Source: Antedon mediterranea (taxonomy: Eukaryota; Echinodermata; Crinoidea; Comatulida; Antedonidae). From it: 64,000 nucleotides of DNA. A program made the translations under genes and the position numbers. Where the stretch lies: positions 35,026,501 through 35,090,500 of the forward strand of contig NC_092672.1 in assembly GCF_964355755.1 (NCBI RefSeq), in the 5' to 3' direction. Shown piece by piece: positions 13,719 through 60,900 of the stretch. The notes beneath the pieces were generated by a model that ran no database searches, was not told the DNA's origin, and worked only from the letters and a program-made list of their open reading frames with translations. Every line of letters starts with the position of its first letter. The stretch's first letter is position 1.

Positions 13719-15305
13719 TGAATTGAACAAGACCATTTTCACAATTTTTTTTTTTTACAAATGTTGAATTTTTGAATTAATATCGTCCATAATTAATCAG
13801 CTCTATTCGAAGCTATATACAGTAACCATCAAACAAACTTTTTCAACTGGTTAAGGAAATTTGTGAAACTATATAGATATATATTTTGAATGCGATCTGA
13901 ACAAATTTAAGCAATTCTAAATCGCACAGTGATATACAGTAAATAGTTATACATTCAGAATGCAATATGAATCTAAGCTAACTTAACACAACTTTGGCAT
14001 GAACCAAGACTATGTCCAGGATTCCTGTATTTTGATTGGCTAGTAATCTTATGAGTAATTATATTATGAATTTACATTATAAAGTAAAAACCTGTTTTTT
14101 TGGAACATCCCTATATTAAGGGGACATTTGCAAAATTAATGAAGGGAATTAATACAAGAGTATTATATGGAAAACCCATATTCAAAACACATCCCTATTA
14201 AAGGGTGTCCCTTTAAGTGCAAATGGGGAATAACCTGTGAATTGCAGCCTACTGGGCTGAATTACACACAGGTGTGGATGACGCATACCACAACTCTCTT
14301 CTCCCCCAAAATGTCCCTTCATGTCGAGTGCTGCCACCAACAATAGTTCTACTGTTGTGAATTTAGGTAGTTGAACACAACTTTGATATAAACCATATTA
14401 ATTAATTATCATTTTTATCTTATTTACAAATCATATAAAGCTAGTTCATTGCCATCCTTACATTTTAATTTCATTATAAATAATATTTATATTAAACACA
14501 TGTTGCATGCAATGCAGTATACACTAGAACAATATCAAAAGTCTGTTTAATCATGGAAGACGAACCTTTTTTCAAAAACATAATTTTACAATTGGCAAAA
14601 TGAAACAGTCTTCCTTACAGAACAGTTCCATTAAATAAAAATATTCAAGGCACTTTTCTCAATAGTCAATACTGTTTAAAAAATTTAAATATCTATGGGT
14701 GGTGCTGTGGGGTTGGGAGAGATAACAAAAGTCATTTTATGGTTTATATGTATAGACACAAATCTTCTTGTGTGTTGTGTATATATAATTAGTAAATGTG
14801 TTATTACGATGTAAGCTGAGCTGTGATGCATAAAGTAATATGTTTACTACTAATGATCTCTAAAGTGTTCACTTCAAACAAACAAATTTATAACAAATAT
14901 TAACATGATGTATAATTTATAATTGAAAAATAACGATAAATTTTTAGTACTAAAAGTTTTGTGGCCAAAATAAAAAATTACAAATTTCATCATCATTAAC
15001 ACGGTGCGATATATACGATATATAGTCTAATTTGATCACACACATTATAAAGGAAAAAATTACACCAATTAAAGTTTAAACAAATTTTAACCTGAGATAT
15101 TAGCTACACTAAATGCAATTTAAATGATGATTGTTCTGTTTTTTTTTTTATTGTTCTTAATTCAATCATAGTTTATTAAGTCCAGTTTTTACTGTTTTAA
15201 CCTTCTTTTTTTTGTATGTATTTTTTATCGTGTTTTTTAACCTTGGAATACACATTTCAATTACTATGTAATTTGACAATAAATTTGATAAAGTTGATTT
15301 GTATT

Positions 15306-15363
15306 AAGCTCTGTCTACACTATAACATTTTATGTGACAAAAAAACGTATGTGCCCATATATA
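15306..15363. mobile_element. MITE family 1, left half only
   Basis: Reads from aagctctgtctacact to gtgcccatatata and is then broken by the 48-bp-core element at 15364. The right half is not recognisable beyond the duplicated gtgcccatatata. Confidence 0.7.
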
Positions 15364-15772
15364 AATCCAAAGGCAAATTACTGAAAAAAATGACAATGCT
15401 GTGGGTATCAGTGGCTGGATCTCAATGGAGATACAAAATAAAATAAGCACTGAAAAAATGACAATGTTGTGGGTATCAGAGGCTGGATCTCAATGGAGAT
15501 ACAAAATAAAATAAGCACTGAAAAAATGACAATGTTGTGGGTATCAGTGGCTGGATCTCAATGGAGATACAAAATAAAATAAGCACTGAAAAAATGACAA
15601 TGTTGTGGGTATCAGAGGCTGGATCTCAATGGAGATACAAAATAAAATAAGCACTGAAAAAATGACAATGCTGTGGGTATCAGCATGGAGGTATAAAAAT
15701 GGTATCAGTGGCTGGATCTCAATGGAGATACAAAATAGAAGCGAAAAGCTAAATCAAAACAAAAAGTAAAAA
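15364..15772 (-). mobile_element. 48-bp-core mobile element, copy A
   Basis: Begins aatccaaaggcaaattactg and ends gcgaaaagctaaatc then A-rich sequence. It is flanked by the 13-bp duplication gtgcccatatata (15351-15363, 15773-15785). It has about five cores (gctgtgggtatcagtggctg), here spaced by aaaataagcactgaaaaa so the period is near 70 bp. Orientation is set by the 49641 copy. Confidence 0.8.
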
Positions 15773-16196
15773 GTGCCCATATATATATAGGTTTTGAGTC
15801 GGTGGGTGTGCCAATAGATATCACATGGTGTTTAATGTCCAATCACAAATGAGATGAAGGGGCTGGTACATAATTGACACATGATCAATATTAGTTATTA
15901 ATTAATATTAAAATATGATAATATTGGATATATTTAAAAGTAAAAATAAAACACCTGTTGGTATAAAAACAAAAGCCTTAACACTCAATATACACAATAC
16001 ATAAGGCAAATGTTAGCAAATTCCATATTAAATATAACCACAACAAATAAGACTGTACTGTATATGTCTTTTCTATTTAAGCAAATATTTTGTCCTTGTT
16101 GTTGTGTCTAAAATATGTGTCTAGAGATGTATAGAGCAAAATCTGAGTTGTCTTGTGTACAATCTACTTAGTACTGCTGCAGATTGTACAATGCTA

Positions 16197-16755: not shown

Positions 16756-19700
16756 TCATTGCATGTCGTCTTCGTCTTTGTTAACGGCTTTTGCTGCTTG
16801 TTGCGGCATTTGTTCCGGGTTGGACAGGATGGATGTTGTCCTGCCAAGCAAGGTGAGTGATGATAGTACAGCTTTAAAAAAAATTAAATAGATATTATGA
16901 GAAAAACATTTATTAGGCTCTGTCTACACTATAAAACTTTATGTGACAAAAAATGATATGCCCATATATGGACATGATGATGTCATATCACTACCATATT
17001 TGGGCACATCACAATTCATTTGTCAAACTAGTTTAGACAGAGCCTTACTCTATTATATAAGATAGGCACAATAATTCTTATTAGCCTCAAGAGAGCCAAC
17101 AGCTCATTCGAAAAGGCATAGGGTATAAACATTAATAGAAATAATATTGTTCTTACTAGGCCTAAGGGCCAACAGTGAGCAGTGTTGATCAAGCCAGCTG
17201 AGCACAGTTCTCAAAAGCTCTTCCTTACTGGATGTTGACACTACAGTGTTGAAAGATTCAAATAATGGTCTAATGATAATGCTGAACTGTTTTATACAAG
17301 TTAAGGTACTAACTCTATAAAACCAGACACATGCAGGGTGGCAATGGCTGATCCAGGATTTTTTCTAAGGACCAAATTACTCCACTCCCAAAGACTTGTA
17401 ATAAGACTTTGTTTATGTAGAGCATCTTGTGTATATGTTTGTCTTGTGAACTTCTGAGGGTCACTAATGATCAGCAATAGCTGGATGGATCACCCTCATT
17501 AAATATGGTTAAGTTAAAAAAAAAAGGGGAAGGGCCTAAAAATGGTGAAATGAAGGGATGAGCTTAATTTGATGTTTTATCTTTTGCATTACAATTTGCT
17601 ACATTTACGGGGCAGGGGATCCGCCCCTGGGGTCGAGGTTCCTATTGGTGAGGAGTTTAATTAATAATTGTTTATGTTTCACAACGCCAGAGGCCTCAAG
17701 CATTGGATGGTCACTTAGGGTCACTAAACCAGGGGCCTTAGGCCACTGTGTTACGCCGCTGAATGTGGCTTCACCCATTAACTGGCCTAGCTAGCTATAA
17801 CTAAGATTGTCTTGAAAAGCAAACTTTCTTTATAATTTATAATTCTATTGTAAAGGATACAATCCAAAATTTCCAGTTTTGTTTCGTTCTTTCTCTAACA
17901 TAATCATCAAACATGTTCTGCATTTGATCAAATCTCTGCCTTGTAACTGGTACACCGCTTGCTGGTAACTGCGCTTGCGATTCACTAATTTACGGGGGAA
18001 AAAACAAATACAATGAATTACTAATCATAAGGATGGATCCAAATGATGCATGACATGTGATACATAATCAACCAATCAAATGGCAAGGCTAATTTTTTTA
18101 TTTCTTTATTTTGTAATCGATATTATAAATAAATTAAAAGATAGAAATAAAAGGTGGTTATACGCCAAGTTGCGGATAAGATAGAAATAAAACAACAACT
18201 AGTTATTCGCCAAGTTGCGATTAACTGATTTATACACATTAAGACAAATGACAACAAAAAAGTTAATAAATTATTTCCACTTATGTCCTATAACAATTGT
18301 AAATAAACAAAATTTAAATAGCAAATGTTATATTAAAATTATCACTTACTTGATTGAGATGTTGAGGGCGGCAATTTCTTGTCTAAGTAACTCTATTTCT
18401 TTTTCGTGCTGTATCCGCTCCTGCTTTAACTTCTTCGTATAATCCACGCCCTTTTGTAACATGGAAGCCTTACTAATCTTAGAACTTGGATTTTGATTAA
18501 TTGATGGTATTAACGAATGGAGCATATCAAAACCAGACTGGAAAATAATAAAGTTAAATGTTAAATCTTCTATTTTGGTCCTTAAGCTTAAGTGGAAACT
18601 GAGGAAATTCGGATTAGGCCCTCCATAGACCCTATCAGATCAGCACACCGGGAGACGATTCTGTACTCTTTAAATAGTGTACCAAGTTCTTTAACATGCA
18701 ATGCTAAGTACACGGGACCAACGGCTTTACATCCTATCCGAAGGATGATGCAATGAGAGTAAAGCATCTTGCCTAAGAATGCAATTAGTATGGTACAGAT
18801 AACCTTGTTTCAATAATAACAATTTATTCAGACTGCCTAAAGCAAAGTACAACAAAGAAACTATTGTTACAAAATCTGAACTCGGTTATAAAACTTCAAT
18901 ACATCAAAACCAGACTGCTATATAAAGATACTAATGGTAATAACATAATACTAGCTATTATTGTTCTCTTCAAACAGTTTCATTGTTTTTTTACTATCAA
19001 AAATGTTGGATGCACCCAAATATGTTAGTGATATGTCATTGTGTCCATATATGGGCACATCACATTTTTCTTGTCATATAAAGTGTGACTGATAGTGTAG
19101 ACAGAGCTCTACATGTACATAATATGATCAACAAACTGAATATAGACTATATTTAGGGACTTGCAGACAGTTTAAGTGACTCAAAGTCGTAGAGGTCATA
19201 TGATTTTAAAGAACTGAACTAACTACTATATTTACTCACTAACCTTGATATTAAAACGTCTTTTCTGTTCTGCTGATATGTGTGTACATGATTTCTTGAA
19301 ATCCTAAATAAAAAAGAAAATAAACATTAAAAAACAAATAAAACAAATATATTATATAAACTGATAAATAAATTCAAAGGCAAATTACTGAAAAAATGAT
19401 AATGCTGTGGGTATCAATGGAAAACAATAAAGTAAAATAACCAGAAAAATTTGCAGAGCTTTCATTCAACACAACATTAAAGCAAGTGAGAGTACTTAGA
19501 TCGAAATAAATAAATATTTGTGATAATACAAATTTAAAGTAAATCAAAACTATATTCAACCTACCTTATCATCATCATCCCTGCTACGATGACCCTGAAA
19601 AAACAACATGTATTTTTTTATTTAAAAATATATCATTAAAAACTCTAGCAATATCACAAAAACCAACTCTAAAGATATAGAAATATTTAGAATAAGAAAT

Positions 19701-34791: not shown

Positions 34792-37036
34792 ATGTTGGCC
34801 GATATGATGATGGATGATGTTGACGATGGAAGACAAATGCAGTCTTCTTCTCTTATTTTTGATGACTTGCCGACAAAAAGCCCAGAATCTATAAATGCAA
34901 TATCTCCTACATCCATGTCATCAGTCGATAATGATAGATTGACGGAGAATCCATTCTATCTTATGAAGAAATTACCAGGTAGTTTTCCCTTTTGAGCTAG
35001 GCCAGTCGTCATTGACAAGATAGTGTAACTGCTATTTGTGTTCGCGGTCTAAATTGATTTATTCCCTGTGTCATTTGAACTTCCCATACACACTTTTTGG
35101 TCTAGGCCTAATATATAGTCTTAAATAGAAATTACCGAAACTAATGTTTTTAACAGTACTAGCCTTTGATAATTAGTACTTTATCTAGTTTTAATGCTTT
35201 TTTTTTTATAGAGAAGGCTGAGGTTACTGGCGAGACAAACCTTATCAACCACTACGCGCTTGACCGAACGTATCAGAAGTTTTCGAGTAAGAAAGTAAAA
35301 GAACAACTTAGCACTTTTCTACCATTGATACCTGGTAAGCTGAAGGTGTTGTAATGCATTTGATTATATATTCTTCTTTCTGATGACAACTACTGTTATG
35401 TGTTTGATTCTTTTCAGAATTATTTATATGAATATGATTTAATACCCTACATATTTTTTCTTTATTGTGATTGTTGAGTTATATATTTTTAAGACTGTTG
35501 CATGATACATAACCATAACATGTATTTTGTATTGCACTTGCAATATACTTGCACTGATGAAGAGCTAGTGTTGCCCGAAAGCTCTGCAAATTTGTCTGGT
35601 TGTTTTACTTTTATAAGGTTTATTGCAAATAGCGTGCGCGACACATGGTGGAAAGGATTTGGGAGCAAACGTCATGACACGCGTACATACAACAACAAAT
35701 CTTATTTTATTTTGTATCTCCATTAAGATCCAGCCACTGATACCCATGTCATTTTTTAGTAATTTGCCTTTGGATTTATATTTTGTTTATTTTAAGTATT
35801 TGAATGTTTTTTAGGAAATATTGATACGGTTGGTTCTCAAGACAACAGTAGCCTCCAACTGTTGGTTGACAAACCTCCAATTGGAGGCAAGGAAATTCTT
35901 CAACTAAGTGGTAGTGCATTAGCAAGTTTCAAGCTACATCCAGGATCGGTATGACATGTTTCTATTACTTCAGTTTACTTTACTCAGTCTTACTAACATA
36001 AACGCTGTCTACACTGTCAAGCTAGTTTGACAAAAAAAATAGAGCTGATTAATTATGAACGATATTAATTCAAATATTCAACATTTGTACAAAAAATATA
36101 AATAATAAATAAATTGTGAAAATGGTCTGGTTCAAACCACCTCTGTCTACTGTACACTATCAAACTTGTTTGACAAAAAAAGTGTGACATGCCCAAATAA
36201 GGTAGTGATATGCCCAAATATGGTAATGATATACCCATATTGTAGTGATATGACATCATCATGTCCATATACATATAGGCACATCACATTTGTTGTCACA
36301 TAATCTGTTGAAAATGAAATGAATTTGCTTTTGTTATTAGATACCAGATCAATACAAGTTATTACATCACCAAGCTCCAAAAAAACACAAGCATAGAAGA
36401 CACAAAAGAGAACATCAGCCCCTGGAAGCAGGACAGGGATTTACTCAAGGTAATGCACAACCCCCGGGAGAGGTTCATACGCATCAAACAGCGAGTACAA
36501 ACTCGCCAATTACAGGATGGATAAACTATTTTATAATTTATCATGCTTATAAACTAAGTATAATTTGAGGCTTAGGGAGTGGAGTTGAAAGTGTAATGAG
36601 TTACAACTCTGGCACTACGTCAGGATTGAACCCTAAACCTTTGAAGACGCAGGATTTTGATAATCAAATATTTATGTTTTAACCATTTGAATCGTAGGTG
36701 GTGAGGCACAAAGTGATGAACCAAAGAAAAAGAAAGTGAAGAAACACGAAGATCCAGACAGAAAGAAAAAGAAGAAAGATAAAAAGAAAAAAAAGGTAAG
36801 AACAATGTTAGGTAAATCATCTTTCTTACAAAAATTAAAATTATGCATACATTTCAGACATGACACAAGTGGGAAATTGCATTTTTATTTTTTAATTATT
36901 ATTTTAAATTATGTATACACAGTTCAAACATGACGCAAGTAAAATTGCATTTTTATTTTTTTAGAATAAACACAGTCCAGACCACACTGGTGGTGTAGCA
37001 CCTCCACATGAAGCTGTAGGACCTGGACGGCCATGA
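34792..37036 (+). CDS. MED19: Mediator complex subunit 19
   Basis: Six exons: 34792-34978, 35212-35334, 35815-35948, 36341-36449, 36698-36795 and 36965-37036, giving 240 residues (human 244). The Med19 core is plain: NPFYLMKKLP, GETNLINHYALDRTYQKF, KKVKEQLSTFLP, DNSSLQLLVDKPPI and LASFKLHPGS. The C-terminus is Lys-rich (PKKKKVKKHEDPDRKKKKK) and ends near NKHSPDHTGG, as in vertebrates. MED19 joins the head and middle of Mediator and links activators to RNA polymerase II. The acidic Met/Asp-rich first 50 residues replace the Pro/Ala-rich vertebrate N-terminus. Intron 2 holds a copy of the 48-bp-core element; later introns hold MITE remnants. Confidence 0.95.
35554..35776 (+). mobile_element. 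48-bp-core mobile element, copy C (single core)
   Basis: Starts ctgatgaagagctagtgttg and cgaaagctctgc, and ends with one core (gatccagccactgataccc) and ttttttagtaatttgccttt. An unrelated block (agcgtgcgcgacacatgg, catgacacgcgtacat) replaces part of the 5' flank. It lies in MED19 intron 2. Confidence 0.75.
36141..36302. mobile_element. MITE family 1 copy, right end lost
   Basis: Three tandem caaatatggtagtgatat-type units; a separate left terminal fragment (gctgtctacactgtcaagct) lies at about 36002-36040. It lies in MED19 intron 3. Confidence 0.72.
36562..36660 (-). mobile_element. SINE family 2 fragment
   Basis: Reverse complement of the 3' part of the 8238 copy (ggagttgaaag, gagttacaactctggc, actacgtcaggattg). 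It lies in MED19 intron 4. Confidence 0.5.
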
Positions 37037-38272: not shown

Positions 38273-38848
38273 CCTACACACAATTATTAACACAAAGCAA
38301 TTTGTGTGTAATTCAGGATCCCTACACACAATTATTAATATAAAGCAATTTGTGTGTAATTCAGGATCCCTACACACAATTATTTATATAAAGCAATTTG
38401 TGTGTAATTCAGGATCCCTACACACAATTATTAATATAAAGCAATTTGTGTTTAATTCAGGATCCCTACACACAATTATTAATATAAAGCAATTTGTGTG
38501 TAATTCAGGATCCCTACACACAATTATTAATATAAAGCAATTTGTGTGTAATTCAGGATCCCTACACACAATTATTAATATAAAGCAATTTGTGTGTAAT
38601 TCAGGATCCCTACACACAATTATTAATATAAAGCAATTTGTGTGTAATTCAGGATCCCTACACACAATTATTAATATAAAGCAATTTGTGTGTAATTCAG
38701 GATCCCTACACACAATTATTAATATAAAGCAATTTGTGTGTAATTCAGGATCCCTACACACAATTATTAATATAAAGCAATTTGTGTGTAATTCAGGATC
38801 CCTACACACAATTATTAATATAAAGCAATTTGTGTGTAATTCAGGATC
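38273..38848. repeat. 48-bp tandem array, 12 units
   Basis: Units of 48 bp with the motifs cctacacacaattattaa, aaagcaatttgtgtgtaatt and caggatc are almost identical. Because 48 is divisible by three, frames stay open on both strands. The sequence is unrelated to the other 48-bp core. No spacer diversity, so not a CRISPR array. Confidence 0.92.
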
Positions 38849-39287: not shown

Positions 39288-42200
39288 TTATGTAACCGAA
39301 ACTTTATCATAAGGCATAAAGCCAGAGTTTCCTAGCATCCGAACGGAAACTCTACCGCTAGGACGAACGCAGACCCATGTGATACTGCCGTGGTTTAAAC
39401 TAAATCGTAACCAAGCTTCTGGAGGGAGTTGTAGAGCTCTGAAATGAAGAAAAAAAAATTGGTTAAACAGTTTTAAAAATAAGGTAAAATAATGTGTCCA
39501 GACTCTAAACTGCACATCACATGACAAAGGCGACAAACACAAATAGTGTGAGCAATGCATGATGGGATGGAATTGGGAGCAATAGCGCCACCACCAGTCT
39601 ATATAAATTTTTAATTATACTGGTGGCAGTATTGCTCCAAATTCCTTCCCATCATGCATCGCTCATGCTATTTGTGTTTGTGTTTGTCGCCAAACAATGT
39701 ACTATATCTACCTGCATACAAAGTAACGTATAACATTCGCATGGCATACTAAAAGCTCTACACTATCATTCATCTGTTCAGGACTTGCTCGATGAAAATA
39801 CTTGCAAAATGCAGCCTCAATCCGAGCACCATCTTGGAAGAACTGCTGAAAAATAAAAGACAACATTTCCAAAAAACAAAGGTTCTGGTTATCAGACGCT
39901 TTGAGCATCAGGCCCAGACAATCGTTGCCATAAAAAAAAAACTTTAATCGCTAAACAATCAATCTCCTAAATAATCAAATTAATCACAAAATAAACTAAA
40001 CTTAATAATCTCTTCCAATCAGCAAAATCACCTGTAAATAATCTAGAATCAAAGAAGAATATGTTCTTGTCAAGAGGGGCCAGAAGCATTAAATGAGAAT
40101 TAAATAAAATCCAGGCAGACTTTAAAAACACAGATCAACAAATCCTTGAACATTTATCATTTTTAAATCAAATATGTCATTATTAAATGAAGTTAAAAGG
40201 AGTGAAAACCAACCGATGCTTCAGGTCTCCAGTGTCCTGCAGGGGGTTCAGGGGGAATTGGCGCCCCTTCTCGTAGAAAGTCACATGATTTACGAGGCAA
40301 ATCAGGAAAATGCTTAGCAATTATATCAGCTGTTTCGATTGCTCTGGTCATTGTGGAATTGTGAATAAGGCTAATGTCCAGTTTCATGTCTTTCAAACGA
40401 AGACCCGTCAGATGTGCTTGTTCACGACCTGAAAGTAATCAAAAGTTCTCTAAATTTAAAAAAAGTAAAAATTAAATAAATAAAAATTGATGTATATATG
40501 TACTTACACTATAAAGTACTGTACATATATACATCAATTTATATATAAACCCAAAGGCAAAATATTGAAAAAATGACAATGCTGTGGGTATCAGTGGCTG
40601 GATCTCAATGGAGATACAAAATGACAATGCTGTGGGTATCAGTGGCTGGATCTCAATGGAGATACAAAATGACAATGCTGTGGGTATCAGTGGCTGGATC
40701 TCAATGGAGATACCAAATGACAATGCTGTGGGTATCAGTGGCTGGATCTCAATGGAGATACAAAATGACAATGCTGTGGGTATCAGTGGCTGGATCTCAA
40801 TGGAGATACAAAATGACAATGCTGTGGGTATCAGTGGCTGGATCTCAATGGAGATACAAAATGACAATGCTGTGGGTATCAGTGGCTGGATCTCAATGGA
40901 GATACAAAATGACAATGCTGTGGGTATCAGTGGCTGGATCTCAATGGAGATACAAAATGACAATGCTGTGGGTATCAGTGGCTGGATCTCAATGGAGATA
41001 CAAAATGACAAAGCTGTGGGTATCAGTGGCTGGATCTCAATGGAGATACAAAATGACAATGCTGTGGGTATCAGTGGCTGGATCTCAATGGAGATACAAA
41101 ATGACAATGCTGTGGGTATCAGTGGCTGGATCTCAATGGAGATACAAAATGACAATGCTGTGGGTATCAGTGGCTGGATCTCAATGGAGATACAAAAATG
41201 ACAATGCTGTGGGTATCAGTGGCTGGATCTCAATGGAGATACAAAAATGACAATGCTGTGGGTATCAGTGGCTGGATCTCAATGGAGATACAAAATGACA
41301 ATGCTGTGGGTATCAGTGGCTGGATCTCAATGGAGATACAAAATGACAATGCTGTGGGTATCAGTGGCTGGATCTCAATGGAGATACAAAAATGACAATG
41401 CTGTGGGTATCAGTGGCTGGATCTCAATGGAGATACAAAATGACAATGCTGTGGGTATCAGTGGCTGGATCTCAATGGAGATACAAAATGACAATGCTGT
41501 GGGTATCAGTGGCTGGATCTCAATGGAGATACAAAATGACAATGCTGTGGGTATCAGTGGCTGGATCTCAATGGAGATACAAAATGACAATGCTGTGGGT
41601 ATCAGTGGCTGGATCTCAATGGAGATACAAAATGACAATGCTGTGGGTATCAGTGGCTGGATCTCAATGGAGATACAAAATGACAATGCTGTGGGTATCA
41701 GTGGCTGGATCTCAATGGAGATACAAAATGACAATGCTGTGGGTATCAGTGGCTGGATCTCAATGGAGATACAAAGAAAAAAGCGAAAAGCTAAATCTAA
41801 ACGATAAATTAAAACAGCCAGAAAAGTTAGCAATTTATCAATTTATATATATACACTATAAATAAAGTAGCTAAGCTAATTTTTTATTTTCTTAAAAATA
41901 AAAAATGTTAATATTACTAAAAGATACCTAGAAGAGTCAACGTCCTATCTTTGTCATCTTCGCGACCTATATTGTATTGTCCATGACGAATTAGGATCAA
42001 ATGGCGTGTGGCTGTTGGCTTCGCTTCTGCTAGCTTCTGATTATATATTTCATTGTCGGTTTCTTTCTTTGGTGGTTTTACTGAACTTTTTGGATCCCTT
42101 CTAAAAAATAAAACAAACAAAAGAGAACATTATTAAATAAATTATTTAAATAATATAGGCCTAGGCCTATTTATTTTATATAAATTCTAATTAGCTATAA

Positions 42201-47560: not shown

Positions 47561-48446
47561 AAGATAAAATACAAGATAAAAAGTAGTATCAATGAAATTG
47601 ATATCAAACTCTGACATTTATATATCATAATACATCGACATAATTGAGGCACAAGACTTTATGAATCATTATCTCGATCTTTATTTAATTTAAGAGTTTT
47701 TGATATGCATATCTGATTTATATCGAACTTATTAGTGAGCCCTCTAGTTTACAGTTTCAAACGAATGATACACTACACAACAATTAAAATGTGCAGCACA
47801 CTACTTTTGATATTCATACACATTGAGACTGTGCCTCTGATATAAAACAGATATAATATAATAATATATTTGAAACATGCCAGAAACAACTGTCCCCTAC
47901 TTTCAATGCTATTCTGAATTTTGAGACTACATAATGGTGCAAAAACTAATATTAATTTAAAACAATAAAAATAGAAACATATATATACATATATCTAATT
48001 AGCATCATCATTTTTTATTTCAAAGACTATACCCAATATTCTTAAACCAAACTTTAGTAGTAGTTTGAGCTAAAATTTGTAATTGGTCTTATTGTACACA
48101 ATGAACAAAAATGCTGAGCTTTACTGAAAATGTGAAAAAAAAATGTCCTGCCACGATAATGCACTGTTGTTAAAAACCAAAATGGCTTTCAAGCCACAAT
48201 GAATATTAATGATCTAAGTGAAACAGTACTGTCTGATGATTGAATAAATATAAATATATATTTGTTTAATTCCTGAAGTACATGTTGGGAAGGAGTTTTT
48301 TTTAAATTAAAAAGTATGATTTATAGTATCATAATGACACACTCGGAATTTAGAGGCCACCCAACATATTGTTGGGTTTAATTTATATACACATACAGAT
48401 CTACACATCTTTATCTCTTAATTAAATCTACCTTTTGATCCTGTTA

Positions 48447-48800
48447 AACCATTGATTGGTTCGAAAACATTGATTAGTTCAAAACTATTGATTGGTTTGA
48501 AACCACTGACTGGTTCGAAACCACTGACTGGTTCGAAACCATTGATTAGTTCGAAACCATTGATTGGTCTGAAACCATTAATTAGTTTGAAACCATTGAT
48601 TGGTCTGAAACCATTGATTAGTTCGAAACCATTGATTGGTCTGAAACCATTGATTAGTCAAAAACCATTGATTGGTCTGAAACCATTGATTAGTCAAAAA
48701 CCATTGATTGGTCTGAAACCATTGATTAGTCAAAAACCATTGATTGGTTTGAAACCATTGATATAGTTTGAAAACTGGTGATTAGTTCGAAACCATTGAT
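48447..48800. repeat. 18-bp degenerate tandem array
   Basis: About eighteen units of aaaccattgattggtctg and variants (tagttcg, tagtcaa) occur just downstream of the SLC6 stop codon on the other strand. The open frame of alternating PLIG/PLIS is a by-product of the 18-bp period. Confidence 0.85.
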
Positions 48801-48907
48801 TTAGTCTATAATAGACAATTTGTTAAGATAAAAACATAAAAAGAAAAAAAAATCTTTTTTTTTCATCAATATTAAACACTTGATCTATATACAAAAATAA
48901 TAACAGT

Positions 48908-51900
48908 CTATATTTCATGTTTTTTGTAGTGCTCCATGAAAATATCTTCCCGGCTTCCTCTGTCAAAATATGCGCGGCGGTACGTTGACGAATCATCCTG
49001 GAATTGATATCCGTAAGTCGCCTCAGAGATCGGCGATTTGCAGATGAGAAATAAACGCTACAACAAGTAAAATATTATTAGTTATAATTAAACAGGTTAT
49101 AATGTAGATTTTGGAAGTTAGACGTTACTGTTACATTATTCATTATACAAAATTAAAAATGTACCTGCTAGTTCATAATTTAGAATTTGTTAATGTTAAC
49201 TACTAACAAAATTAAAATCAACGTTTGAAATATTCCAAGTAAAGCATAAATATAAATTAAGCTTAATAGTTCTAAGACAGTATTTGAAATTCGGCTAGAA
49301 GAAAAATAATTGAAAAATTCGAAAAAAAAAAATCCACAAATGTAATTCTTACTTCCATAAATGAACCCTCTGCAGTTGCAAACGCATAGACAATACCAAT
49401 TGGTATCCAAATCATTGAAAGTAAAGCTATAAACCAGCCTAGGAACTCGGCCCAGTCAGGATAGATATAGTCATCGTAGGTCACTACTTCATACTGTATA
49501 AAGCTGAACACAAAGATAGCCTAGAGAGCCAGAAAATAACAATAAGATTATCAGTCAATTCAATTTAAACTTTTTAAGGTTTATAAACCAAACTCATATA
49601 GCATTTAATATACAGTAGAATATACATATATATATTTAAACTGATGAAGGGCTAGTGCACTGATGAAGGGCTAGTGCACTGATGAAGGGCTAGTGCACTG
49701 ATGAAGAGCTAGTGTTGCCCGAAAGCTCTGCTAACTTTTCTGGCTGTTTACTTTATCGTTTTGATTTAGCTTTTCACTTTTTATTTTTGTATCTCCATTG
49801 AGATCCAGCCACTGATACCCACAACATTGTCATTTTTTCAGTGCTTATTTTATTTTGTATCACTATTGAGATCCAGCCACTGATACCCACAGCATTGTCA
49901 TTTTTTCAGTGCTTATTTTTTTTTGTATGTCCATTGAGATCCAGCCACTGATACCCACAACATTGTCATTTTGTATCTCCATTGAGATCCAGCCACTGAT
50001 ACCCACAACATTGTCATTTTGTATCTCCATTGAGATCCAGCCACTGATACCCACAACATTGTCATTTTGTATCTCCATTGAGATCCAGCCACTGATACCC
50101 ACAACATTGTCATTTTGTATCTCCATTGAGATCCAGCCACTGATACCCACAACATTGTCATTTTGTATCTCCATTGAGATCCAGCCACTGATACCCACAG
50201 CATTGTCATTTTGTATCTCCATTAAGATCCAGCCACTGATACCCACAGCATTGTCATTTTGTATCTCCATTGAGATCCAGCCACTGATACCCACAACATT
50301 GTCATTTTGTATCTCCATTGAGATCCAGCCACTGATACCCACAGCATTGTCATTTTGTATCACCATTGAGATCCAGCCACTGATACCCACAGCATTGTCA
50401 TTTTGTATCACCATTGAGATCCAGCCACTGATACCCACAGCATTGTCATTTTGTATCTCCATTGAGATCCAGCCACTGATACCCACAGCATTGTCATTTT
50501 GTATCACCATTGAGATCCAGCCACTGATACCCACAGCATTGTCATTTTGTATCACCATTGAGATCCAGCCACTGATACCCACAGCATTGTCATTTTGTAT
50601 CACCATTGAGATCCAGCCACTGATACCCACAGCATTGTCATTTTGTATCTCCATTGAGATCCAGCCACTGATACCCACAGCATTGTCATTTTGTATCTCC
50701 ATTGAGATCCAGCCACTGATACCCACAGCATTGTCATTTTGTATCACCATTGAGATCCAGCCACTGATACCCACAGCATTGTCATTTTGTATCACCATTG
50801 AGATCCAGCCACTGATACCCACAGCATTGTCATTTTGTATCACCATTGAGATCCAGCCACTGATACCCACAGCATTGTCATTTTGTATCTCCATTGAGAT
50901 CCAGCCACTGATACCCACAGCATTGTCATTTTGTATCTCCATTGAGATCCAGCCACTGATACCCATAGCATTGTCATTTTGTATCTCCATTGAGATCCAG
51001 CCTCTGATACCCACAACATTGTCATTTTGTATCTCCATTGAGATCCAGCCACTGATACCCACAGCATTGTCATTTTGTATCTCCATTGAGATCCAGCCAC
51101 TGATACCCACAGCATTGTCATTTTGTATCTCCATTGAGATCCAGCCACTGATACCCACAGCATTGTCATTTTTTTCAGTAATTTGCCTTTGGATTTATAT
51201 ATATTTAAACTTATATTTGTTTCATGTGAAAGTGTTCCTTTAATAAGGGGTGTCAAAAAGGATCCCAAAACCAAAACATGACAAATTCAAAGAGATTATC
51301 TCAATTTAGGCAAGCCACTCCCCCAAGGCCTCTTTGTTAGACTTCCAAGTAGAGTATTAAAGAGGATAACCACCAAGTACATACGGTCAACATGCTTTTT
51401 CCTTTCAAATCCCTCTTATTTGGAAGTTGTTACTATTTCTGTTCGCAATTAACCAAATCTACTTTCCTTTAAGTCGACTTAAAAACCTTTTTTCAGAATT
51501 TATATTGACCTTGCTCTATTCTCACACAGCACCTTTGATACATTTTTTAATTGATGCTATTTCTGTTTTTATTAATTTATTATTAAACAAATGTAAATAA
51601 TAAAATAAACTCCTGTCTACATTATCAAACTTTAAGTGACAAAAAAATGTTGATGTCATATCACTGCCATATTTGGCCATATCACTACCATATTTGTGCA
51701 CATCACACTTTTTTTGTCAAACTACTTTGATAGTGTAGACAGAGCTTAACACTTACAAATATGAGAATAGGAGAAATGACAAGCCAGCAGGATACAAAGT
51801 AGATGTTTGGAGTAGAAGTGGTCATTTCCTCAACATTCCTTCTTAGTCTTGTAGCACCTACAAAAGAAAGAGAAACTGAAATGCTAACTCTAGGGACTTT

Positions 51901-57900: not shown

Positions 57901-60900
57901 AATTGCTAAACAACAGGATCAAAACAAAACATGTCTGTCAATCAACAGAGTAGAGATTATGACATACCTTGTCGTCTGGCAAGAAATTTGAAGGGTTGAA
58001 ATTTAATTATGGATTACACTGTAAAAAAACTATTACGTAGAAGCACAGTTTAGTTGAAAAAAATATTATTATAATGTAATTAAATAAAACAAAATAACAT
58101 GCATTAAACTAATTAATTATTTGTTCTTCTTTGAACCAAATTAAAATAAAAGATAATTATGCTGTGAATAATCACTTTCTTGGTAAAGAAGAATTTGTTG
58201 AAAACATGAAATGAAATTAAACATTTATTTTAATTACATTGTAATTGATCTTCTGCAAAAAAATTTATTAGATTGTGAAGAATGAATGAAACAACAACAA
58301 AAATATACTTATAATACATTTTTAAAAATCACATAAAAATAACACACATATTGATATATTTTTGGAAATATTTTCTCACAAAAATTGTGTAAATAAAAAA
58401 GAATCACCTGACAAGCGTGTTACTATGAAACTCATTGTAGCTAGAGAGGGCGATCATCGAGCCGAATGCGATACCAATTGAATTAAAGTTTTGAGCAGCA
58501 GCAGCTACCCAAACCTATATTTGGAAAAAAAAAATGTTACTGCATGCAAATTTATTTTGGGAATGGGCAAAGGTCATAATTGAGCATATTTTAACAAGGA
58601 AGCGGAAAAAAACATAATGCATTAACAAGAGGAAGTATTTAATCCTTAAAAAAAAAATTAAATCTAAAAATAAGTACTCGCAATTAATACTGTAATTGAT
58701 ACTGTATTACAAAAGTGGTACAATATACTAACCTCTGCCTCCATTAACAGATCCCAATCTGGCTGAATAAAAAATCTAAGTCCCTCTCCTGCGCCCTCTA
58801 GTGACGCGCCCACTCCTACGAGAATCGCTAAAACCATGTACGGGAATGTAGCAGTTACGTAAACAACCTAAAATATATACATAATAATAATAAACAATAA
58901 CATTAATAATAATAAACAATAACATTAATAATAATAATAAACAATAACATTAATAATAATAATAAACAATAACATTAATAATAATAATAAACAATAATAA
59001 TCACATCAACAACAACAATAATAATAACAATAACAATAATAATAATGTATATACACACTATCAAAAACAGACTAGTAATGTTTATTTTCTTTTTTTGTGT
59101 GTGTGTGGCCTTGTCCCACTTTTATTTGCATTGCCTATTTTACAATACATATTCATTCAGCCGCATTCAAATACTTCCTGGTGCTGGCAAGAAATCAAGG
59201 GTCAGTTTATTTTAAGCAAAAGTACCATATTGGTTATTCACAGCTATAGCCTATAGCTATAACTTATAGGCTACAGTATGACCTATAGCTATATAAAGTT
59301 ATAGCTATAGCCTATAGCTATAACTTATAGGCTACAGTATGACCTATAGCTATATAAAGTTATAGCTATAGCCTATAGCTATAACTTATAGGCTACAGTA
59401 TGACCTATAGCTATATAAAGTTATAGCTATAGCCTATAGCTATAACTTATAGGCTACAGTATGACCTATAGCTATATAAAGTTATAGCTATAGCCTATAG
59501 CTATAACTTATAGGCTACAGTATGACCTATAGCTATATAAAGTTATAGCTATAGCCTATAGCTATAACTTATAGGCTACAGTATGACCTATAGCTATATA
59601 AAGTTATAGCTATAGCCTATAGCTATAACAAAAAGCATTGAGGCAAAACTTTTAATATTCACAGTGTAATGCAATATAAAAAAAAAAATATGTTACTGTA
59701 ACATATATTTTGTTTAACTTGCAAATTAAAGACAAATTAAGATACACTACCAGACAATTTGACACTTATGAGAAATAACATAGTCATGTCAAACTGCTTA
59801 CACAGCACAAATTTATATTTTGACATTTAACATTTTGTGAATATATCAAGGATTTACTTTTACTTTGTAAATGTATTCAAAGGAAAACCATTTTACCTTG
59901 CCAGAAGACTTAACCCCTTTGTGTAAGCATAAATAAACCAAAATCCAAGCTAACACCAAGAAACCAAATATCTCCCACCGCATTTCTCCAAAATCATCAA
60001 TGCCACCTGTGATATTGAGCACTCGACGACTTGATAGAAAGAAAGGGAAAACATATAATGAGGGAGGATGCTTTTTTTTTTTTTTAAACCATATTTAATG
60101 GGGGTGATCCATCCAGCTATTGCTGATTATTAGGGACCCTCAGAGCCCTCAAACATATACACAAGATGCTCTACATAAACAAAGTCTTATTACAAGTCTT
60201 TGGGAGTGGAGTAATTTGGCCCTTAGAAAAAATCCTGACATGTGACGGGACTTGAACCCAGGACCCTTGGAGTGGTAGACAAGCATCATAACCACCAAGC
60301 CACAACTCCACTCCAAAATAGCCCCTGTATAAGGGGGATGCTTTATGTATTGCTTGATGCGTTTTTATTCTTTATTCTTTATATAATAATAGGTCCAGAT
60401 GATGACAAATTGAAGTTGAAAAGAATTCGATTAAAGCTATGTCTACACTATCAAACTAGTTTAACAAAAAAAATTTGATGTGCCCAAATATGGTAGTGAT
60501 AGGCCTAAATATGGTAGTGATATGACATTATCATGTCCATGTATCTTCTTCTTACTTGAATCTTCGGGCTCTTGATTAAGGCAAATGCCTTTTAAACGCC
60601 CTCCATTTCTTCTGTATTTATCTAGAATTGGTAGCAAAATTTATCTCCCATTGCTCTGTCTTTGTATGTATGTATGGACACATCGCATTTTTTTTTGTCA
60701 CATTAAGCTTGATAGTGTAGATAGAACTTTAGGATTAAACTGTAATGAATAGCACAACACACATCAGAAAGGTTAATTCATTTGATATGCTAACTGAAAG
60801 AAACCGAGAAAAACATTGCGCTGTTAATGTCCAGAACTTGTCCGACCTTCTTCAAAGTTAGCTGATTCAATTTCTCAGATAAGGATTATAAACCGTAGGT

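Follow-up and report, generated by a model that had tools for sequence, protein, structure and literature searches.

Minisatellite arrays in the terminal region of a Penelope-like element of the crinoid Antedon mediterranea

Five copies of one element in the window

The sequence analysed here, called the window, is a 64-kb stretch (G000:C3:35026501-35090500) of a genome of 354 Mb in 18 contigs. A BLAST search of the window with a single-unit copy of the element recovered five copies and none besides, at the five places where an earlier note on this DNA had reported a shared element; the same query gave 0 matches in three shuffled windows. The copies and their parts, some named here in terms of a Penelope-like element (PLE), are as follows.

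15351..15363 and 15773-15785, no strand: target duplication GTGCCCATATATA, 13 bp, flanking the copy at 15364 (read directly)
15364..15773 (or 15772), minus strand: copy with about five 68-bp units (BLAST, repeat analysis)
19371..19472, minus strand: degenerate copy with one unit, a partial core (BLAST)
35547..35776, plus strand: one-unit copy starting at -167, at the hammerhead-like core (BLAST)
40534..40547 and 41838-41851, no strand: target duplication TCAATTTATATATA, 14 bp, flanking the copy at 40548 (read directly)
40548..41832, minus strand: another amplified copy, with 25 units of 48 bp and its 5' end at -129 (BLAST, repeat analysis)
49627..49640 and 51196..51209, no strand: target duplication TATATATATTTAAA, 14 bp, flanking the copy at 49641 (read directly)
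49641..51195, plus strand: copy of the PLE terminal region (pseudo-LTR) with an amplified core of 28 units (repeat analysis, BLAST)
49641..49714, plus strand: about 3.9 tandem copies of a 19-bp unit, CTGATGAAGGGCTAGTGCA, at the 5' junction (repeat analysis)
49698..49733, approximate, plus strand: hammerhead-like core CTGATGA-AGAGC..GCCC-GAAA, in the last 19-bp unit (sequence motif)
49779..51172, plus strand: minisatellite array, 68-bp units followed by 48-bp units (Tandem Repeats Finder, unit reading)
51173..51195, plus strand: conserved 3' end ..CAGTAATTTGCCTTTGGATT (read in the sequence; genome count)

In the output of Tandem Repeats Finder, the 48-bp arrays cover 40570-41775 and 49921-51172, and those of 68 bp cover 15380-15683 and 49779-49972. 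Read unit by unit, the cores number 5 (15364), 1 partial (19371), 1 (35547), 25 (40548) and 28 (49641), so that the approximate counts given in the note were correct. The first of the five 68-bp units at 15364 is rearranged, and the array at 49641 consists of two 68-bp units and then 26 units of 48 bp. Unrelated inserted sequence interrupts the copy at 35547..35776 between 35611 and 35705. The junction with the 19-bp repeat CTGATGAAGGGCTAGTGCA is private to the locus at 49641 and absent elsewhere in the genome.

The window also holds a second dispersed repeat, made up of 2-4-copy arrays of a 21-bp unit, GCCCAAATATGGTAGTGATAT, at a minimum of 13 places in the 64 kb (2251, 4642, 12559, 13205, 13634, 27448, 28939, 36184, 44648, 51657, 52659, 56109 and 60482). 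These arrays adjoin inverted repeats such as AAGCTCTGTCTACACTATCAAACTTT, and the repeat is probably a MITE-like element with a tandem core of its own. Three further minisatellites are unrelated to either family: 38273-38848 (48 bp x 12), 48446-48801 (36 bp x 10) and 59242-59629 (61 bp x 6.4, 100% match).

Identity of the element and its target sites

The end shared by the copies, GCCTTTGGATT, is fixed, with small variants only. Its exact 26-bp form occurs 1,009 times in the genome, against 0 for the reversed pattern used as a control, which bears out the earlier claim of a constant 3' end. Longer copies run on upstream without a break into a reading frame ending ..VAEHFNSAGHSIANFRVIAIDHDVKWSDKTRKDKENHWELLLKTTKPFGLNIRNILPDR-stop, and this frame has a GIY-YIG match (Pfam PF01541, E 8.2e-5) above the curated cut-off. 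The endonuclease thus lies at the C-terminus of the frame, as in EN+ PLEs. This endonuclease end is present in at least 150 copies in the genome, with open frames of up to 650 aa, and at seven checked loci the end of the frame lies 391-407 bp upstream of the common 3' end on the same strand. This is the full-length Penelope-like partner that the note had suspected. Two further GIY-YIG frames (L095 and L096) were considered and set aside, as they lack the common 3' region and come from other families or from genes.

The layout of several loci is that of pseudo-LTRs and partial tandems: at L007/L091 the next PLE-like reading frame begins immediately behind the 3' end, and L054/L055 are two copies in one orientation. 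The RVT_1 Pfam match of the reverse transcriptase part is below threshold (E 0.067), so a reverse transcriptase is putative, suggested by motifs in the broken frames behind the 3' end at L091 that look like those of PLE reverse transcriptases; no solved relative was found for the frames of this part. Pseudo-LTR layouts are known from PLEs (PMC3846280; PMC11167929), and we conclude that what recurs here is the terminal region, or pseudo-LTR, of a PLE with an endonuclease. In the explanation we favor, the five window copies are very probably solo terminal regions of this GIY-YIG-bearing element. For one PLE, a hammerhead motif, cleavage of AT-rich DNA and initiation at an internal site have been described (PMC11167929). 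By analogy with that Anolis element, the PLE enzyme would nick TA-rich DNA and reverse transcription would start at an internal site, thereby fixing the 3' end GCCTTTGGATT.

Three copies in the window carry direct duplications of 13, 14 and 14 bp in TA-rich targets, as the note had stated. Among the genome loci sampled, targets are likewise TA-rich, duplications vary from about 8 to 15 bp where resolvable, and 5' truncation is present. Together with the fixed 3' end and the PLE partner, these features uphold the retrotransposition reading of the note. A cut-and-paste MITE with a tandem core would also be short, non-coding, numerous and found in TA-rich targets. However, the ends ACTTGCACTG.. 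and ..GCCTTTGGATT are not terminal inverted repeats, truncation varies on one side only, the duplications have no constant length, and the element is continuous with a retroelement reading frame. The MITE reading, which the note had already rejected on the grounds of its ends and duplications, can hardly be correct.

The sequence at 15300-15363, to the left of the copy at 15364, resembles the MITE-like 21-bp-unit repeat (AAGCTCTGTCTACACTAT..GTGCCCATATAT). The PLE end therefore seems to have inserted into such a repeat, so that the empty target can be seen from one side. Flanks at L026, L029 and L020 contain another repeat, ending ..CACCGGGCGGTTTAGAATTAATGTTC(T/A)TTGCCTGATTTGTTTATATATA, that also adjoins (TA)n tracts and may represent another PLE, or a family of similar kind, with the same preference for targets.

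The 5' ends and the hammerhead-like core

The note had described the other end of the element as variable. Truncation lengths do vary, but half of the copies sampled start in nearly the same place. Among 30 copies picked by their 3' end alone (L031-L060), or 26 once evident duplicates were merged, 13 start within -171..-155, a 17-nt window, while 4 are shorter and 9 longer. Compared with uniform truncation, clustering of this kind has a p of about 8e-15 (2e-10 for copies <250 bp only). The clustered starts lie at or just ahead of CTGATGAAGGGC..GCCCGAAA, a hammerhead-like core (CTGATGA...GAAA), and define a unit of ~165 bp. Several 5' junctions carry short repeats of the template end.

Read by eye, the core has CTGATGA, GAAA, GGGC/GCCC as a 4-bp helix II and UGCA/UGC(U) as a possible helix I. 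Hammerhead motifs of PLEs are minimal and have no helix III (PMC6155905), and it is these that the putative ribozyme core looks like. A search with the Rfam hammerhead models gave no match at gathering scores and chance matches alone at loose ones, and neither the core nor the 48-bp unit had an unusual fold energy; we therefore call the core hammerhead-like only. The predicted cleavage site was also considered as the exact 5' end, and one copy fits it (40548, at -129), with two at -134; we make no claim of such a correspondence.

About half of the copies thus end at the hammerhead-like core, ~165 bp upstream of the fixed 3' end. Instead of being merely a truncated PLE, the ~165-bp unit might be an element in its own right, SINE-like or retrozyme-like, with a promoter of its own and mobilised by the PLE, given that half of the copies have two fairly discrete ends, copies are many, and the hammerhead-like core lies at the 5' side. 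Against this, other copies continue into the 3' UTR and coding sequence of the PLE, and the unit lacks a separate head sequence, a tRNA-type promoter, a canonical type I hammerhead and the ~300-bp tandem monomers of metazoan retrozymes. We consider an independent element unlikely, and retain the reading of these copies as pieces of the PLE itself. A bolder proposal, suggested by the position of the starts and in our judgment slightly less likely still, is that short RNAs derived from the PLE truly begin where the starts cluster. The ribozyme region would then define, in vivo, a mobile unit of ~165 nt, in effect a natural mini-PLE. If true, this would give the still unexplained hammerhead of PLEs a role. 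The fixed 5' edge at the hammerhead-like core is also a testable hint about the function of PLE ribozymes in vivo.

Growth of the core, and comparison with known systems

In elements with one unit, two T-tracts, ATTTTTG and CATTTTTTC, flank the 48-bp stretch. The junction of the 48-bp arrays can be placed at five positions, which corresponds to a microhomology of 4 bp, or of 5 bp in the other subfamily. The 48-bp unit thus lay between short direct repeats in the ancestral single copy, as do the minisatellites that arise from short direct repeats within TEs (PMC6947457); a microhomology seed has been proposed for minisatellites generally (Haber and Louis, as cited in PMC6947457). The 68-bp unit is not so flanked. 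Its junction, CAGT|GCTTAT, is free of microhomology yet common to about 25 loci, and was therefore probably made once and spread by transposition, so that small duplications also travel with the element.

Eight array loci, three of them from the window, were read fully or nearly so, with 5, 25, 28, 40, 10, 17, at least 32 and 3 units. Most of the large arrays have unit variants or higher-order repeats of their own. The TATCACC variant (TATCACCATT) has 8 of its 9 exact genome matches in the array at 49641, where TATCACC and TATCTCC units alternate. Among the arrays read, CATTGATACC (26 units) is exclusive to C1:504k, which has the private variants CCATTGATACC and TATCTTC, and CAATGATACC (9 units) is exclusive to C1:3.79M, where CCAATGATACC is private and the units form a 5-unit higher-order repeat. 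Private variants are few in the array at 40548. Units diverge by 0.039 within arrays and 0.053 between them, a difference reached in 0/2000 permutations. Private variants and the lower divergence within arrays point to local unequal exchange or conversion, and not to a common pre-formed array. Two very long relatives lie elsewhere in the genome, one of 68-bp units (about 6 kb, G000:C8:3659457-3665512) and one of 48-bp units (3.2 kb, G000:C3:38785622-38788870).

Judging from these sequence variants, expansion of the core is best explained as mostly local and subsequent to insertion, while some arrays may have been long already on landing, the variation being that of one genome. The note had placed amplification after or during spread: the private variants make the large expansions look later than insertion, and it is the 68-bp duplication that spread with the element.

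The amplified loci probably lie nearer to chromosome ends than unselected copies do. With one entry per array locus, the median relative distance from the chromosome end was 0.35 for 48-bp arrays (n=38) and 0.19 for 68-bp arrays (n=25). Unselected 3' ends were uniform along chromosomes (median 0.46, n=24) and consensus single units were central (median 0.72). The arrays differ from the unselected set with p 0.004 and from the consensus single units with p 5e-8; since the lists were ascertained in different ways and age may confound them, the effect is likely but not established. Background tandem repeats are slightly denser near chromosome ends, as a trend only (p 0.11).

Growth could instead take place during insertion, with the PLE reverse transcriptase jumping back between the T-tracts so that the copy lands amplified. 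Small terminal duplications at 5' ends (CTGATGCACTGATG in L002 and L041, TGCACTGCACTG in L017, the 19-bp repeat at 49641) are what a polymerase re-engaging its template is expected to leave, and the 68-bp duplication was indeed carried along by the element. However, one series of jumps cannot yield interspersed variants and higher-order repeats such as those at 49641 and C1:3.79M, and template jumping does not predict arrays nearer to chromosome ends than unselected copies. We regard growth during insertion as quite improbable. Under the explanation of local growth after insertion, the 48-bp stretch would be duplicated by slippage or unequal exchange across the T-tract microhomology, and would then, by local enlargement and homogenisation, become a minisatellite, which would happen more often toward chromosome ends; the 68-bp duplication, with its different junction, would have arisen once and then been carried to many loci. 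We infer both the DNA-level mechanism of array growth and the reason why chromosome ends matter as parts of this best explanation.

Metazoan non-LTR retrozymes (PMC7229834) resemble the present family in small size, high copy number, a hammerhead-type core, larger target duplications and a possible dependence on PLEs. They are defined by a type I hammerhead inside tandem monomers of ~150-450 bp; here, the repeated monomer (48/68 bp) excludes the ribozyme-like core, and the Rfam search found no canonical type I hammerhead.

Also close are PLEs of the Penelope/Poseidon type, namely PAc of Anolis carolinensis (PMC11167929) and Penelope of A. vaga (PMC3846280). These share the C-terminal GIY-YIG domain, the pseudo-LTR with partial tandems, the core within it, hammerhead-like here by eye, solo pseudo-LTRs, AT-rich targets and short, variable target duplications. 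The present family differs in its more than a thousand exact-ended copies, in a 3' end that lies upstream of the next reading frame and not inside it, and in a pseudo-LTR that holds a core turning into a minisatellite.

The arrays are a clear new case of something already known, the birth of a minisatellite inside a TE, and not a new kind of element. As in the minisatellites born in Alu, B1, MaLR LTR and Ogre elements (PMC6947457), the 48-bp unit lies between short direct repeats, and duplication across microhomology, local growth and accumulation toward chromosome ends are probable. The host in this case is a PLE, which is absent from the list in that review; we found no earlier report of a PLE-derived minisatellite in the open-access literature, which does not prove that there is none. 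A further difference is that, within one family, the same unit grew in parallel at many loci. One family thus supplies many inserts of the same sequence, with boundaries dated by insertion, some of which kept one unit and others reached dozens. It can be read as a naturally replicated experiment on the way in which minisatellites originate and on the places where they do, one that separates sequence, the T-tract seed common to all copies, from location, the chromosome ends.
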